Source: Luteibacter mycovicinus
GTDB lineage: Bacteria > Pseudomonadota > Gammaproteobacteria > Xanthomonadales > Rhodanobacteraceae
Direction of reading: 5' to 3'
Assembly: GCF_000745235.1 (NCBI RefSeq)
Contig: NZ_JQNL01000001.1
Coordinates: 1,240,001 to 1,304,000, forward strand
Length of the DNA stretch: 64,000 nt
The first letter of the stretch is position 1. Each line of letters begins with the position of its first letter. This document shows, piece by piece, positions 6,601 through 62,655 of the stretch. The notes below the pieces were generated by a model. It saw only the letters and a program-made list of their open reading frames with translations, was not told where the DNA came from and ran no database searches. Made by a program: the position numbers and the translations under genes.

Positions 6601-7108
6601 CTCGCTCCGGGGCGCTTCCGTCGGCGCGCATGCGATCGAGACCTTTCGCCGAACCGACCCAGATAGCGCCATCGGGCGTCTGCGCGATCGCGCGGACGTC
6701 GTCGCTGGTCAACCCGTCGCGCCACTGCACGAAGACGCCGGTGTCGGGATCGTAGCGGCCCAGACCCGTCTCGGCTCCGCCCATCCAGATCCTGTCGTCA
6801 TGGTCGACGAAGAGCACCGACAAGCCGCCCGTCGGCATCGCGTGTTCCCGGCGAGGCCCGATGCGCGGGACGGTGAATTCCACGCCGTCGAACCGCGACA
6901 ACCCGGCGGCGGTGGCCACCCAGATGAATCCGCGCGCATCCTGCACCACGGCCTGCACCTTGCTGCTGGGCAAGCCCTCGTGCAAGCCGTAACTGCGGAA
7001 CTGGGGGGTGGGGATCGGCGCCGTCGTGAGGGCTGCCGATGTGGGGATGGCCACGCCCATGAGGATCGTGACCACGAGAATCCATCTCGCGAAGAGCGTG
7101 TGGTGCAT
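3605..7108 (-). CDS. Beta-propeller hybrid sensor histidine kinase/response regulator
   Basis: Membrane-bound hybrid two-component sensor of 1167 residues. The start at ATG 7108 (MHHTLFARW) has AGGA nine bases upstream and opens a signal peptide; upstream in-frame starts run into the divergent GTPase gene. The periplasmic part shows repeated two-component-propeller units (IWVATAAGLSRFDG, IWMGGAETGLGRYD, IWVGSAKGLDRM) and ends in a Y_Y_Y-like domain. A membrane helix (about 740-760) leads to a HisKA domain with His810 in the LGHEIRTPM motif, an HATPase domain with GSGLGLAICQ, and one C-terminal receiver whose phospho-acceptor Asp lies in the LLLDLDLP segment. There is no DNA-binding output domain, unlike classical HTCS proteins, so a separate partner is inferred. 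The ligand is unknown. Confidence 0.9.
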   Translation of the reverse strand: MHHTLFARWILVVTILMGVAIPTSAALTTAPIPTPQFRSYGLHEGLPSSKVQAVVQDARGFIWVATAAGLSRFDGVEFTVPRIGPRREHAMPTGGLSVLFVDHDDRIWMGGAETGLGRYDPDTGVFVQWRDGLTSDDVRAIAQTPDGAIWVGSAKGLDRMRADGSAPERVGDLRGGAVNALHVADDGRLWIGADTGLFVADSDGRVSPRAFTDGSPVRVQGIGGGPAELRIATDRGLFRLTADARPVRERRVAAGRVFGTLADSHGILWIASAQGLSMLDRFDRMHDVAGSWTAAGGLPGRTVRGMLEDREHGLWFALSDGGLAYLGPSWDDFTRFSHVATDPHTFPGRTVTAVAAREGGGLWVGGLRGWIRGFDPATGHTSPGFELGAPRIQSLLALPGQRLLIGTVDGLTVGRGRTAQPVLRSTIDRPVTTMASGPGGDVFVAALDAGLFRVDADLGHAARVRFAETPRGWADTRQIEMVDGDLWQASLAGLARQDRATGEMRFIEGVARGRINAFEPDGDGFWVVRPDALERFHWQGASAVRDRHIGGAEGFPSTEILNLRRDRGGRLWLYGQTGVWRFDPEHGRFRSFGMADGLASGEFTHATTVLLDDGSMYGGTLAGLVGFRPDAQRDHVRRPTITVLGATVSRHGRREVLPIENGTLNLAWDDREPRLSARVLSFVHPDRNHVRFEVRRDDDASPVRVASDGERVFEGLPAGRYAMSITGAGRDELSPALPAAFVVVMEAPPWQRWWAWVGYALLATAAVVAVLRGTRRRVRQAMRMRLAEHQRRMAEEASAAKTEFMATLGHEIRTPMTGVLGMAELLARTPLDDAQRGYVDAVRRSGDTLLRLVNDALDIARIESRRLVLESDCVSMRSVADEVVALAATRAREKGLALTVSVDAAVPATLRGDAVRLRQVLQNLVNNAVKFTEAGGVSVALSACAGSLIMTVSDTGPGMSAELRARLYSRFEQGASPRRAEGSGLGLAICQELVALMGGSIEVASEPGCGTRFTVSLPMQPCACAGHTCMPAPSSIGTPGGWRVLLVEDDPVVSEVIANLLRARGHLVAAVSDGLAAMSELSAGRYDVLLLDLDLPLVDGFQIARMVRRIEAMASLPIVAVTARSAGDEVSAIREAGMDALLRKPMSGDEMDAVLERVCRTPLAAAS

Positions 7109-7223
7109 ACGCCGGGTTCCTGGTTCGAACCCGATCATGGCATGCGGCTGAAGCTTTCCGCACGACTTGACGTCCCGACGGACTGTAGGCATGAACCGCT
7201 GCGCTTGCCCGTAGAATGGCCGC

Positions 7224-8678
7224 ATGTCACGCCGCCTGCGCCTCCTCATCGCCGCCATCGGCTTCGCCGCCCTCGCCTGGTTGCTGCTGGCGGCGATCGA
7301 CCGCGGACTGGCGCTGGCCCAGCGTTTCATGGGTTTGCCGGAGGGCATGCGCTGGCTGCTGGGCATCGCCATCGCGATCCTCGCGGGCGGCGGCATCGCG
7401 GTCGGCTTCTGGTGGCTGCGTCCCCGCAGACCTCGTGGACCGGTGGTCGCACCGGACCGTGCATCGCTGGAAGCGCGCCTGCAGACGCTTCGTGAATCCG
7501 GCTCCGAGGTTGAGGAAATTCGCAGCGAACTCGGCGAACTCGACCGGCGTCGCGCCAGCGAGAAACTCTACGTCGCGGTCTTCGGCGAGATATCCACGGG
7601 CAAGTCGTCGCTCATCGCCGCGCTGATACCGGACGCGCGCCCGGACAGCGACGTGCGCGGCGGCACGACACGTGAGGTGACGCACTTCGAGGGGGCCATG
7701 CCTCGCGGTGGGGAATGGACGCTCGCGGACGTCCCCGGTTCGGCCGAAGCGGACGGCGACGCACGCGAACGCATGGCACGCGACGAGGCGTTGCGTGCGC
7801 ACGCCGTCGTGTACGTCTGCGCCGGCGACCTCACGCGCACGCAGGGCGACGAACTGCGCTGGCTGGGCGACTTCGGCAAGCCGCTGGTGCTTGCGATCAA
7901 CAAGGCGGACCAGTGGTCGCCGGAAGACCGTGAGCGCATCGTGCGGCAGGTGCGCAGCCAGACGACCGGAATTCCCGACGCCGTCGTCGCGATCAGTGCG
8001 GGGGGCGAGGAGCGTTTCACCCGCCGTCTCGCCGATGGCACGACCGAGGACGTCACACGCCGACGCAAGCCTGACGTCGATGCCCTCGTGGACGCCATCG
8101 CGCGGCTTGTCGCGCCGGGTGCGCAGGGCCTCGAGGCGCTTCGCGAAAACGCGGTGCTCGCACGTGTCCACGAACGTACCGGTGAGTACGAAAAAGCCCA
8201 CCGAGCCGCGGAAGCCGATCGTATCGTCGCGCGCTACGCGCGACGCGCCATCGTCGGCGCGATGGCCGCCGTCGCACCCGGCACCGACCTCGTGATTCAG
8301 GGCGCTCTGGCGGCAAGCCTCGTGCGGGCCCTGGCGGACCTGTACGGCGTCAACGTCACCGACGTCGACGTCGACAATCTCCTGCGACAGGCCCGCATGA
8401 CCTTGCGAACCGGCACATCGATCGTGCTTGCGGTGGCCGGAAACGCGCTCAAGGCGTTTCCGGGGCTGGGAACGCTGGGCGGTGGCGTGCTGCACGCCTT
8501 CGCCTATGCCCTGATCTTCGACAGCCTCGGCCGTGCGCTGGCCGCCACGCTTGCCGAACGCCATACCCTCGACCAGGCCGATGCGGGAGAGCGCATGCGT
8601 GAGTTGCTCGGCGACGCCAGCGGCTCGCGGCTCCGCCGGCTGGCCGAACTCACCGGCGACGCCTTGCGGGATCGTTAA
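7224..8678 (+). CDS. Membrane-anchored P-loop GTPase with DUF697-like C-terminal domain
   Basis: A 484-residue protein with two N-terminal membrane helices (about residues 8-28 and 43-63), a short coiled region, and an Era/YcjX-like GTPase domain. The P-loop is GEISTGKS at 121-128, the G3 motif reads DVPGS, and G4 reads NKAD. The C-terminal part, rich in Ala/Gly/Leu with the pattern APGTDLVIQGALAASLV, resembles DUF697 domains of YcjF-type proteins. The cellular role is not known. A second, related GTPase lies 1.9 kb downstream on the same strand, beyond yceI-cybB-yceI. The start ATG at 7224 fits the 115-bp gap from the divergent kinase. Confidence 0.85.
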   Translation: MSRRLRLLIAAIGFAALAWLLLAAIDRGLALAQRFMGLPEGMRWLLGIAIAILAGGGIAVGFWWLRPRRPRGPVVAPDRASLEARLQTLRESGSEVEEIRSELGELDRRRASEKLYVAVFGEISTGKSSLIAALIPDARPDSDVRGGTTREVTHFEGAMPRGGEWTLADVPGSAEADGDARERMARDEALRAHAVVYVCAGDLTRTQGDELRWLGDFGKPLVLAINKADQWSPEDRERIVRQVRSQTTGIPDAVVAISAGGEERFTRRLADGTTEDVTRRRKPDVDALVDAIARLVAPGAQGLEALRENAVLARVHERTGEYEKAHRAAEADRIVARYARRAIVGAMAAVAPGTDLVIQGALAASLVRALADLYGVNVTDVDVDNLLRQARMTLRTGTSIVLAVAGNALKAFPGLGTLGGGVLHAFAYALIFDSLGRALAATLAERHTLDQADAGERMRELLGDASGSRLRRLAELTGDALRDR

Positions 8679-60264: not shown

Positions 60265-60465
60265 GTACCGTGACCTCGATGGGGCGGAAAGTCTAACGTA
60301 GCCGGAGGGTTGCCGGTTCTCTTGCATCGAAAGCCTCAGCAAATGAGACCGATTGTTCAGAAAAAGTCACTTGCCTTGCGGAATTTTGTAGGGTATTTCC
60401 TACATCAAGCGTCCTCACATAGACTTCACGAAGGGCGCGAAACAGGGGAACAGGGGCAGCACCGC

Positions 60466-60705
60466 ATGAATCTCACCACCACCACGTCGCCGTCGCGGCG
60501 CCTTGCGTGGGCCGTCGCAGCCGTACTCGCCATTGCCGGCATCGCCGGCCTGGCACTCGCGCCCATGGTCGCCGCCGCGATCCCGCGCACGGCGATCCAG
60601 ATGGTCTACGCGTGGCTCTGCGCCTCCCTCGTGGGCTCCGCTTACGTCGTCGTCACGCTTGCGAACGATGCCGAAGGCGCCACCGAGGACAGGGACGACT
60701 TCTGA
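60466..60705 (+). CDS. Small two-helix membrane protein
   Basis: A 79-residue protein from ATG 60466 (MNLTTTTSPSRRLAWAVAAV) with two hydrophobic helices (about 12-36 and 45-65) and a short acidic end (NDAEGATEDRDDF). No family recognised. The upstream 160 bp is relatively A/T-rich for this genome (TTTTGTAGGGTATTTCC near 60385), consistent with a promoter. A terminator follows. Confidence 0.62.
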   Translation: MNLTTTTSPSRRLAWAVAAVLAIAGIAGLALAPMVAAAIPRTAIQMVYAWLCASLVGSAYVVVTLANDAEGATEDRDDF

Positions 60706-60730
60706 TCTCAGGGATGGGGTGACAACTAAG

Positions 60731-60757
60731 GGCTCGCCGGTGGCGGGCCTTTTTTTG
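60731..60757 (+). terminator. Rho-independent terminator
   Basis: Stem GGCTCGCC/GGCGGGCC (one G-U pair) with loop GGT and a T7-8 run. It ends the small membrane-protein transcript. A T7 then G10 homopolymer run lies just beyond (60765-60783). Confidence 0.85.
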
Positions 60758-60838
60758 TGGTCGTCTTTTTTTGGGGGGGGGGCTCGGCTTGCGCCCTCGC
60801 CTTTGTGTTGCCGCGGCGTGTGGTGTCGCGTCGAAGAC

Positions 60839-61069
60839 CCGGCGGGTGCCACCCTCGCGTCCACGCCTGCGGCGACCCCTCAGGGAAAGGCCGCTCCGCG
60901 GCCGTATTTCAATGGCCTTCGGCCGGGTCGGGCTCCAACTGGGGGTTTTCGAGTCGGCTGTCCCTGCCTCCCCGAAAACGGCCGGTCATCCCTGACCGGC
61001 CCCCTTGCGGGCCTCTTCCAGTCGGCGCCCTCGCCTGCGGCTACCGGACGCGAGGGTGGCACCCGCCGG
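60839..61069 (+). repeat. 231-bp structured repeat element, copy 1
   Basis: Bounded by perfect 24-bp inverted ends (60839-60862 and 61046-61069; core GGGTGCCACCC). Inside are several hairpins: GGCCGC-TCC-GCGGCC, GGCC-TTC-GGCC, CCGGTCA-TCC-TGACCGG and GGCCCCC-TT-GCGGGCC. Weaker similarity to copy 2 extends outside, back to about 60781 and on to about 61130. Translated frames look repetitive but differences fall in loops, so I do not call a gene here. Confidence 0.8.
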
Positions 61070-61239
61070 CTCTTTGGGGGACTGAGGCAGCGTGGGGTCG
61101 AGCGGCGGTGCGCTTCGTTGGATCGGAACGCTCGCTTGCCTTAGCGCATCGCCTCGTTCGCATTAGTTAGGCTGAGGGTTCGCGAACACGGTTCGCTCCT
61201 GCCGCACGGCGACCGCAATGGTGGGATACATGGCGGCCT

Positions 61240-61262
61240 GTAGGAGCGCGCCCTGCGCGCGA
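61240..61262 (+). repeat. REP-like palindrome (GCGC variant)
   Basis: GTAGGAG followed by CGCGCCCTGCGCGCGA in the spacer between the two structured repeats. Same core as 13596-13620 and 39120-39142. It abuts the outer similarity zone of copy 2. Confidence 0.7.
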
Positions 61263-61328
61263 AAAGCCAACGAAGCGAAGAAGCCACACCCCGCTCGACC
61301 ACCAACCCACCTCGGTACACCAAAGAGA

Positions 61329-61559
61329 CGGCGGGGGTGACCCTCGCGGCCGGTAGCCGCAGGCGAGGGCTTCGACTGGACAAGGCCGCGAAGCGGGGCC
61401 GGTCAGGGATGACCGGCCGTTTTCGGGGAGGCAGGGACAGCCGACTCGAAAACCCCCAGTCGCAGCCCGACCCGGCCGTAGGCCATTGATACACGGCCGC
61501 GGTAGCGGCCTTTCCCTGAGGGGTCGCCGAAGGCGTGGCCTCGAGGGTCACCCCCGCCG
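61329..61559 (-). repeat. 231-bp structured repeat element, copy 2 (inverted)
   Basis: Same length as copy 1 and in reverse orientation. Its ends (61329-61351 and 61537-61559) are inverted repeats with one mismatch, but their sequence (core GGGGGTGACCC) differs from copy 1. The interior is nearly the same when read on the minus strand; changes cluster in predicted loops or are paired across stems. The stretch 60706-61640 otherwise holds no credible gene. Confidence 0.8.
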
Positions 61560-61640
61560 GCTCTTACCGACCACACCGCACGCCGCGACAAAGCCAAACG
61601 CGATGGCGCAAGCCGAGCCCTCATACCATTACAAAGGCAA

Positions 61641-61670
61641 AAAAAACCCGGCGACCGAAGCCCCCGGGTT
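61641..61670 (-). terminator. Rho-independent terminator of secD-secF
   Basis: On the minus strand: AACCCGG stem, GGGCTTCGGTCG-type loop, CCGGGTT stem, then a T6-8 run. It lies 23 bases beyond the secF stop codon. Confidence 0.9.
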
Positions 61671-61692
61671 TCCGAAGCGGAACGGAGCAGCT

Positions 61693-62655
61693 TTACGGGC
61701 GACGCGCCAGTTCCGGGTCTTCCTTGCTGACGGGCATCAGGTCCTGCTTCGACACGCCGAGCCAGAGAAGGATCGGGCTGGCGACGAAGATCGAGGACAG
61801 CGTGCCGACCACGATACCGATCAGCATGGTGATCGCGAAGGCATGGACGACGGGACCGCCGATGAAGAACAGCGCGGCCATGGTGATGCCGGTGAACAGC
61901 GAGGTGATGATCGTTCGCGACAGCGTGCTGTTGATCGAACGGTTGAGCACTTCTTCCGGCGTGGCGTTACGGCTGGAGCGGAACAGCTCGCGGACACGGT
62001 CGAAGACGACGACCTTATCGTTGATCGAGTAACCGACCACCGCCAGCACTGAGGCGAGCACCGTCAGGTCGAACTCACGCTGGGTCAGCGCGAAGATACC
62101 CAGGGTCACGAGAACGTCGTGGACTTCGGTGGCGAGCGCGGCGATGGCGAAGCGCTTCTCGAAGCGGATCCACAGGTAACCCATGATGCCGATGATGACG
62201 AAGGCGACGGCGACGATACCGTCGCTGCGGAGCTCCTCACCCACCTGCGGGCCGACGAAGGACTTGCTCTTCATCGTCACATCGGGGCGGGTGGTCTTCA
62301 GGGCGGCGATGATGTCTGAGGAGACCTTGGTTGCCGCCTCCTCACCGACCAGCGTGACCGAGCCCTTGTCGTCCTTGGGCAACATGCGCACGTTGAACTC
62401 GCGCGTGCCGCCGACCGACTGCACCAGCGGGTTTTCGATGCCGGCCTTTTCGAGCGTGGCGCGGACCTCGTTGACCTCGATCGGCTGCGCGTAGTCGACG
62501 ATGACCGAGACGCCGCCCAGGAAGTCCTGGCCGTAGTTGAAACCCTTGGTCAGGATCAGGCCGATCGAGCCCAGCATAAGCAGCACGGCGAGGCCGATGC
62601 TGTACTTGCGCAGACCGAGGAAGTTGAAGTTCGAGTTGTGATTGAAGATTTCCAT
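61693..62655 (-). CDS. secF: Protein translocase subunit SecF
   Basis: Inner-membrane RND-type partner of SecD that helps complete protein export using the proton gradient, 320 residues. It has an N-terminal helix, a periplasmic domain (about 40-140) and five C-terminal helices. The family segments SINDKVVVFDRVREL and RTIITSLFTGITMAAL are present. It starts 12 bp after secD. A clear terminator follows. Confidence 0.97.
   Translation of the reverse strand: MEIFNHNSNFNFLGLRKYSIGLAVLLMLGSIGLILTKGFNYGQDFLGGVSVIVDYAQPIEVNEVRATLEKAGIENPLVQSVGGTREFNVRMLPKDDKGSVTLVGEEAATKVSSDIIAALKTTRPDVTMKSKSFVGPQVGEELRSDGIVAVAFVIIGIMGYLWIRFEKRFAIAALATEVHDVLVTLGIFALTQREFDLTVLASVLAVVGYSINDKVVVFDRVRELFRSSRNATPEEVLNRSINSTLSRTIITSLFTGITMAALFFIGGPVVHAFAITMLIGIVVGTLSSIFVASPILLWLGVSKQDLMPVSKEDPELARRP

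Follow-up and report, generated by a model that had tools for sequence, protein, structure and literature searches.

The accessible portion of PMC3686654 defines a REP by a 5' GT[AG]G beside a short palindrome, and REPs are known in Stenotrophomonas and Xanthomonas from the available parts of PMC3686654, PMC2817692 and PMC6006769. MITEs are typically AT-rich, as far as the accessible text of PMC10969869 describes them. Here we analysed a 64,000-nt stretch of the Luteibacter mycovicinus genome (the window; contig NZ_JQNL01000001.1, positions 1,240,001 to 1,304,000 of the forward strand), in which an element of about 840 bp (window positions ~60780-61620) lies between two convergent genes, a small gene and secF. 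We consider that it is probably a scaled-up mobile DNA element of REPIN/BIME type, non-autonomous and non-coding. The host genome (G000) comprises 4.63 Mb in a single contig.

The element is a doublet: terminal inverted repeats bound it on both sides, and between them units 1 and 2 flank a centre that contains inverted REP-type sequences (Table 1). The two units are mutually inverted palindromes of about 240 bp, matching each other as inverted repeats over 108 nt (95%), 88 nt (83%) and 88 nt (82%), and their outer arms differ from each other yet are self-complementary. The inverted pair of structured elements reported in a preliminary description is thus confirmed, with some corrections of measure: the copies said to be of equal length are nearly so, spanning 241 and 243 bp with their arms (2 bp apart); the perfect 24-bp ends of the first copy are the inner part of 29-nt arms that carry one mismatch (97% complementary); and the arms of the second copy are indeed different in sequence and self-complementary, with two mismatches over 29 nt (93%) in place of one. 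The outer ends form a 26-nt inverted pair (92%). A G run occupies window positions 60773-60782, immediately before and into the left end, and by eye several other left ends follow terminator-like hairpins at a distance of ~10-45 nt; terminator-like sites in the region number 3, versus 1.3 +- 1.3 in shuffles. The 79-aa small gene has no Pfam match, and the gene on the other side is, on our reading, SecF rather than SecD.

Table 1. Features of the doublet and its neighbours (window positions).
Feature	Position	Strand	Basis or remark
Small gene, 79 aa, convergent neighbour	60466..60705	+	present at same place in relatives
Terminator-like hairpin of left gene, outside element	60728..60752	+	terminator-type site scan
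Left terminal inverted repeat, family form GGGCTCGGCTTCGCCATCGCG	60780..60805	+	26-nt pair with 61595-61620
Unit 1, multibranched palindrome; outer arms 60834-60862 and 61046-61074	60834..61074	+	inverted-repeat, copy and fold analyses
Conserved core of unit 1: closing stem, stem-loops 1 and 2 (TCC tips), short stem-loop 3	60930..61030	+	covariance model R1, 86.7 bits (one of the sequences used to build R1)
Centre of doublet, two inverted REP-type sequences inside	61075..61322	.	sequence; layout also in another Luteibacter
REP-like sequence, inverted (TTCGCGAACACGGTTCGCTCCTGCC)	61179..61203	-	read from window sequence
GTAG-type REP (TGTAGGAGCGCGCCCTGCGCGCGA)	61239..61262	+	window sequence; type also flanks the genome's only Y1_Tnp gene
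Unit 2	61323..61565	-	89% identical to unit 1
Conserved core of unit 2	61367..61468	-	covariance model R1, 85.1 bits
Right terminal inverted repeat	61595..61620	-	26-nt pair with 60780-60805
Terminator-like hairpin, secF side, outside element	61647..61659	-	terminator-type site scan
secF, convergent neighbour	61693..62655	-	PF02355, E 2.7e-63

A genome-wide search for the unit, which the preliminary description had proposed, proved productive. With unit 1 as the query and 40 of 52 candidates scored, the own genome holds at least 20 near-full-length units and one partial unit, 18 of the 20 standing in nine doublets. Besides these nine doublets there are three derivatives, of which the one at 399224 retains the left half, that at 1234346 is a deletion form, and that at 3635233 has one second-kind unit between both ends. 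In this genome and in another Luteibacter (G005), the units are of two kinds with different self-complementary outer arms (GGTGCCACCC and GGGGTGACCC; GTGCCACCC and GTAGCCCCC). Ten units of kind 1, the window copy included, share 94-100% identity in the own genome; the nine others are 94-98% identical to unit 1, versus 88-91% for the second kind; the two kinds therefore move jointly, without being homogenised with one another. These data show that the dispersed repeat is the whole doublet with its ends, not the single unit; the element of 231 bp first described holds as a unit of that repeat.

The ends are themselves found in other company. The family form of the terminal repeat has 26 matches in the own genome (at most 3 mismatches) versus 2 for the reversed pattern, and at eleven further loci terminal repeats border another hairpin of ~95 bp (type A), for which 28 places were counted (control 1), eleven inverted pairs accounting for 22 of these. 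The tip of the type A hairpin reads GTCGCTAAGTCCTCC...GCGGAAGCGCTCC (e.g. L085 1167, L086 1295-1784, L087 1240-1600 and L092 1295-1730), and a 1.25-kb type A doublet (L085 3738-4986; 745737-746985) encloses small ORFs, possible cargo. The picture is that of a mosaic with exchangeable modules, as in BIMEs.

Two positional trends were set aside. Relative to the replication fork inferred in the own genome from sampled GC skew and a dif-like site, the nine doublets and three derivatives (type B) all have the same orientation (12 of 12), whereas in G005 the 11 complete doublets are mixed (6 + and 5 -), even within 383 kb. This absence of bias weakens a lagging-strand model, and replication orientation was dropped as evidence. 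Similarly, a preference for convergent genes is not claimed: a crude ORF heuristic, with no background rate, assigns 17 of 28 own-genome elements and 7 of 25 G005 elements to such a setting. Near the dif-like site, at L186 ~6631-8400 (contig start), a Zot-like ATPase frame was seen by eye, as for a filamentous prophage at the terminus.

Upon extending the search to the genus, we find DNA matches to unit 1 in 20 of 23 genomes (the own included) and in one Pinirhizobacter genome, with 12 candidates scored per genome; G009, which has no such match, is matched by a covariance model. G005 has at least 42 unit places, with 40 of its 91 candidates scored. An earlier reading that many of its units are single was wrong for five, each of which has a second unit missed in scoring. 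The aligned G005 doublets have the same centre layout with two inverted REP-type sequences, including a GTAGGAGCG-type REP at the place equivalent to 61179-61203. Inside the central REP of two of them (L227, 122673; L238, 3982807) an IS110-family insertion was seen by eye, and PF01548 supports that assignment for one of the two.

The secF end was found in all 23 genus genomes and is 86-91% identical between species (22 other genomes). The kind 1 copies are 94-98% identical, and the spread is therefore younger than the species splits. Examined by eye in the 23 genomes, the region downstream of secF carries the doublet in G000, a diverged doublet in G012 and other large inverted hairpins in G004, G010 and G022, while in at least 12 genomes (G001, G002, G003, G005, G006, G009, G011, G013, G014, G017, G018 and G019) a terminator-like hairpin, and no doublet, stands between the small gene and secF. 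The target-site duplications that the preliminary description had suggested looking for did not appear, none being seen by eye at nine own-genome doublets. REPs, too, are not known to make a target duplication.

The covariance model covers a 97-nt core (closing stem, two stem-loops and a short third stem-loop) and, with rough E-values, matches 142 of 398 genomes of the order in 34 of 98 genera, own genome included, with 59 matches each in G024 and G212. A family confined to Luteibacter and Pinirhizobacter, as an exact-pattern scan had indicated, is refuted by these matches. At the level of the class, 17 of 369 genomes are matched, 2 of which belong to the own order. Several copies with kept tips (G424, G437, G524, G048) and mirrored pairs (G424, G437, G048) argue for true relatives, and single weak model hits may be chance. 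Of the close pairs, 26 of 26 in Luteibacter and 6 of 6 in Pinirhizobacter face inward (some places represented twice); in other genera 6 are inward, 6 outward (all of one genus, g65) and 1 tandem. Related units in tandem, in the same orientation and 357-422 bp apart, were also noted in G119 at 2256590-2270570 (L305, L316). Outside Luteibacter and Pinirhizobacter the ends are different, and 41 of 46 units have an AT-rich hairpin nearby; a hairpin of this sort, like ACTTTTCTTTGC-NNNN-GCAAAGAAAAGT, is conserved beside units in L297, L299-L304 and L323. The window element has no match in viral, plasmid and phage collections, the viral scan being for the exact core pattern. A query of 421 bases containing a unit from another genus has no phage match, and three plasmid records align to it, covering 13% of it at most; the part of this query carrying the AT-rich hairpin also matches an Aeromonas and a Burkholderia record.

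Next, we consider what the conserved core could be besides a mobile repeat. The stems vary, yet a TCC tip is retained in stem-loop 1 of 109 and in stem-loop 2 of 106 of the 114 distinct cores, and TCC stands at all 12 tips of the six class-member alignments shown. With both main stem-loops TCC-tipped in 106 of 114 cores, a CsrA-type RNA is possible: read from the opposite strand, the units would be a structured RNA whose two GGA-tipped hairpins bind CsrA/RsmA, as decoys or as 3'-end binding sites. We consider this unlikely. On that strand A-N-GGA occurs in 51 and 59 of 114 cores, some unit tips are, we presume, equal to the CsrA SELEX consensus, and in 102 of 114 cores the predicted fold has two hairpin loops with GGA; but the UCC tips of the aligned strand fall in two hairpin loops equally often (103 of 114). 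The GGA strand folds better in 88 of 114 cores, which may stem from loop energies alone. Furthermore, A.C mismatches (G.U on the GGA strand) exceed G.T by 38 to 12 genome-wise events over 33 of 34 pairs, a count that omits pair 14-101 (G.T in 76 of 114), with which G.T cells exceed A.C by 93 to 52. Unpaired sites in the own-genome and G005 units have no such asymmetry (17 to 22). Without pair 14-101, wobbles of either kind make up ~2% of cells, which is low for an RNA.

Rfam returns nothing at cut-off for the window region 60300-61750 or for seven loci, in line with the preliminary statement that no named family is matched. The best scores are 22.8 bits versus 56 gathering in the window and 33.1 versus 52 in the seven loci. 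Five of six weak matches (E 0.03 to 0.97) belong to CL00106 (rsmX twice, RsmW twice, TwoAYGGAY), all five on the GGA strand, but every match is below its gathering score. Additionally, no sigma-70-like promoter was found in 60700-61700, and both inward and outward pair layouts occur. The GGA tips and the weak CsrA-clan matches on the GGA strand make the RNA reading worth testing. We regard it as improbable that both natures are combined, in a class-wide mobile mirrored family of which one strand of each copy is a CsrA/RsmA-binding hairpin pair; a selfish element would then spread sponges for a global regulator, and the tips would be kept as the protein, or a tip-using transposase, reads them.

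The fold itself is kept. As DNA, unit 1 folds at -85.8 kcal/mol versus -55.0 +- 3.5 for shuffled sequences (z -8.9, 0 of 200), and as RNA the z values are -9.0 for unit 1 and -7.6 for unit 2. We aligned 39 units (A1: 38 of the 55 representatives of 110 distinct units, and unit 2), leaving out 17 representatives by choice as near copies, truncated, misread in orientation or poorly aligned. In A1, 45 of 67 consensus pairs are changed on both sides, with 302 compensated cells versus 70.6 +- 7.4 in shuffles, and 96.7% of cells are paired versus 41-51% with partners slid. Unit ends outside G000 and G005 were picked by the complementarity of the outer arms, which biases helix 1; in helices 5, 6 and 8, unused in choosing ends, both-sided changes occur in 8 of 10, 5 of 7 and 4 of 7 pairs. 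With 3 of the 67 pairs left out as doubtful, A1 has 2379 Watson-Crick, 13 G.T, 28 A.C and 46 other cells. A second alignment, fitted to the model (A3: 130 model matches, 114 distinct cores, 83 named sources), has 32 of 34 pairs changed on both sides and 802 compensated cells versus 190 +- 12 shuffled. In both alignments 0 of 500 shuffles reach the observed paired cells, both-sided pairs, compensated cells or covariation score; further pair types barely exceed the shuffles, being reached by 2 of 500 (A1) and 45 of 500 (A3). The compensated stem differences noted initially are thereby confirmed between copies, and stems changing without compensation, which would have spoken against a kept fold, are not what the alignments show. 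That a folded shape and not a protein is kept is supported by this covariation, by the dispersal in many copies and by the lack of an Rfam match at cut-off.

Fold-keeping is thus real, and its cause is a separate matter. Template switching can create compensated changes in one step (accessible part of PMC8794818), and for that reason compensated changes alone do not prove selection. One-step arm correction by this route may explain fold-keeping as well as selection does. In a rival reading, which we think improbable, the units are passive quasi-palindromes, functionless and now immobile, and template-switch repair keeps the arms of these old repeats identical. The compensated changes between copies are genuine and the arms of the two kinds differ by compensated blocks, consistent with the mechanism in the available text of PMC8794818. 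For 56 of the 60 units from the own genome and G005, 2-7% of unpaired sites deviate from the group, and paired cells are altered on one side in ~2% and on both in 0.2-2.6%. In G005 the paired cells changed on both sides (36 of 1406 and 22 of 892) are matched in frequency by those changed on one side (34 and 24); counted as distinct changes, however, one-sided ones dominate there (25 to 7 and 15 to 8), and in the own genome they prevail by 11 to 1 and 13 to 5 cells. Moreover, repair alone leaves unexplained the tips kept class-wide and the near-identical doublets at unrelated loci.

A further alternative, which we rate as doubtful, is a MITE of a DDE transposase, with the 26-bp ends as the recognised sites and the hairpins as passengers. 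Terminal inverted repeats are common to two hairpin kinds in the own genome, and no coding content was seen in the window element; terminal inverted repeats would suit a DDE-type MITE equally and count against the REPIN/BIME reading. On the other hand, the nine doublets lack a visible target duplication, the right end is absent from several type A pairs, and no transposase gene was seen between ends in the own genome (24 of 26 end matches opened, ORFs listed for one), where the longest enclosed stretch, 745737-746985, holds small ORFs only. The ends are also missing in other genera: of the Luteibacter unit entries, 42 of 72 have TIR-like sequence no more than 400 bases away, versus 1 of 46 others, the remaining 45 having none nearby. 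Finally, a protein-coding reading is rejected because the end-to-end copies in the own genome measure 240 to 244 bp, which breaks any frame.

We return to the REPIN/BIME-type mobile element as the preferred reading. Near-identical doublets are scattered over the genome and absent from the same junction in relatives, the fold is kept while the stems turn over, and mirrored pairs occur in other genera too. The suggestion of a large REP relative would hold in the REPIN/BIME sense, whereas the unit itself falls outside the GT[AG]G definition, as by eye none of the units listed begins with GT[AG]G. The central REP at 61239-61262 conforms to it, and two REPs in close inverted arrangement are found in the centre alone, clearly in G005 and less strictly in the window. 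The dispersed entity is the doublet, two mutually inverted, multibranched palindromic units with end modules that differ by lineage. A trans-acting enzyme presumably handles it as a single strand in folded form, for instance at a replication fork. The likeliest candidate would be a Y1/HUH transposase such as the genome's single RAYT, whose kind of REP occupies the doublet centre. The compensated stems would owe their persistence to selection for the fold, to correction of the palindromes through template switching, or to both, which the data do not separate.

Mobilisation by a RAYT is a conjecture, and no enzyme is tied to the units. The own genome has one Y1_Tnp gene, flanked by GTAG REPs, and no units were seen in the 1.4 kb around it. 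Within the genus, Y1_Tnp is single in 20 of 23 genomes, with 2 in one, 3 in one and 0 in one (80% completeness); it is single also in G009 and G020, both without a DNA match to the unit, and the gene counts reveal no link with the unit counts.

We found no published description of the mirrored repeat in the open literature, subscription literature being mostly outside the search. Overall, this is a real family of large mirrored structured repeats over the class, whose behaviour is most like REPIN/BIME; a second life as a regulator-binding RNA is possible, if unproven. If this is right, REP-type dispersal exceeds 20-nt hairpins and extends to whole multibranched mirrored pairs with exchangeable ends, spread across the order and beyond, and intergenic palindromes in many genomes of the order (142 of 398 sampled) would gain a name. 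The many recent, nearly fully paired copies offer a natural test of selection versus template-switch repair, and the conserved GGA tips raise the question of whether a mobile repeat titrates a global RNA regulator.

Compared with known systems, the CsrA/RsmA-binding RNAs of CL00106 (rsmX, RsmW, TwoAYGGAY) likewise have two adjacent hairpins with GGA tips, whereas the units score below every gathering threshold, are dispersed mirrored DNA repeats and have no promoter-like site. IS200/IS605 elements, in the accessible part of PMC6006769, share secondary structures near the ends and handling as single strands; here there is no transposase inside and the ends are inverted. MITEs such as QMITE2 and Chunjie, as presented in the available text of PMC10969869, are similarly short, non-coding and intergenic with terminal inverted repeats and a strong fold, but the doublet is GC-rich, unlike typical MITEs, with no target duplication seen, no parent element found and a mirrored double structure. 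The closest likeness is to REP/REPIN/BIME sequences as the accessible portions of the REP sources describe them: non-coding, intergenic and multicopy, with inverted doublets, hairpins with complementary changes and, here, a GTAG REP in the centre. The units depart from them in their size of ~240 bp and multibranched core, versus the single REP hairpin of ~20-25 nt, and in having no GT[AG]G foot, terminal repeats of their own and TCC/GGA tips.
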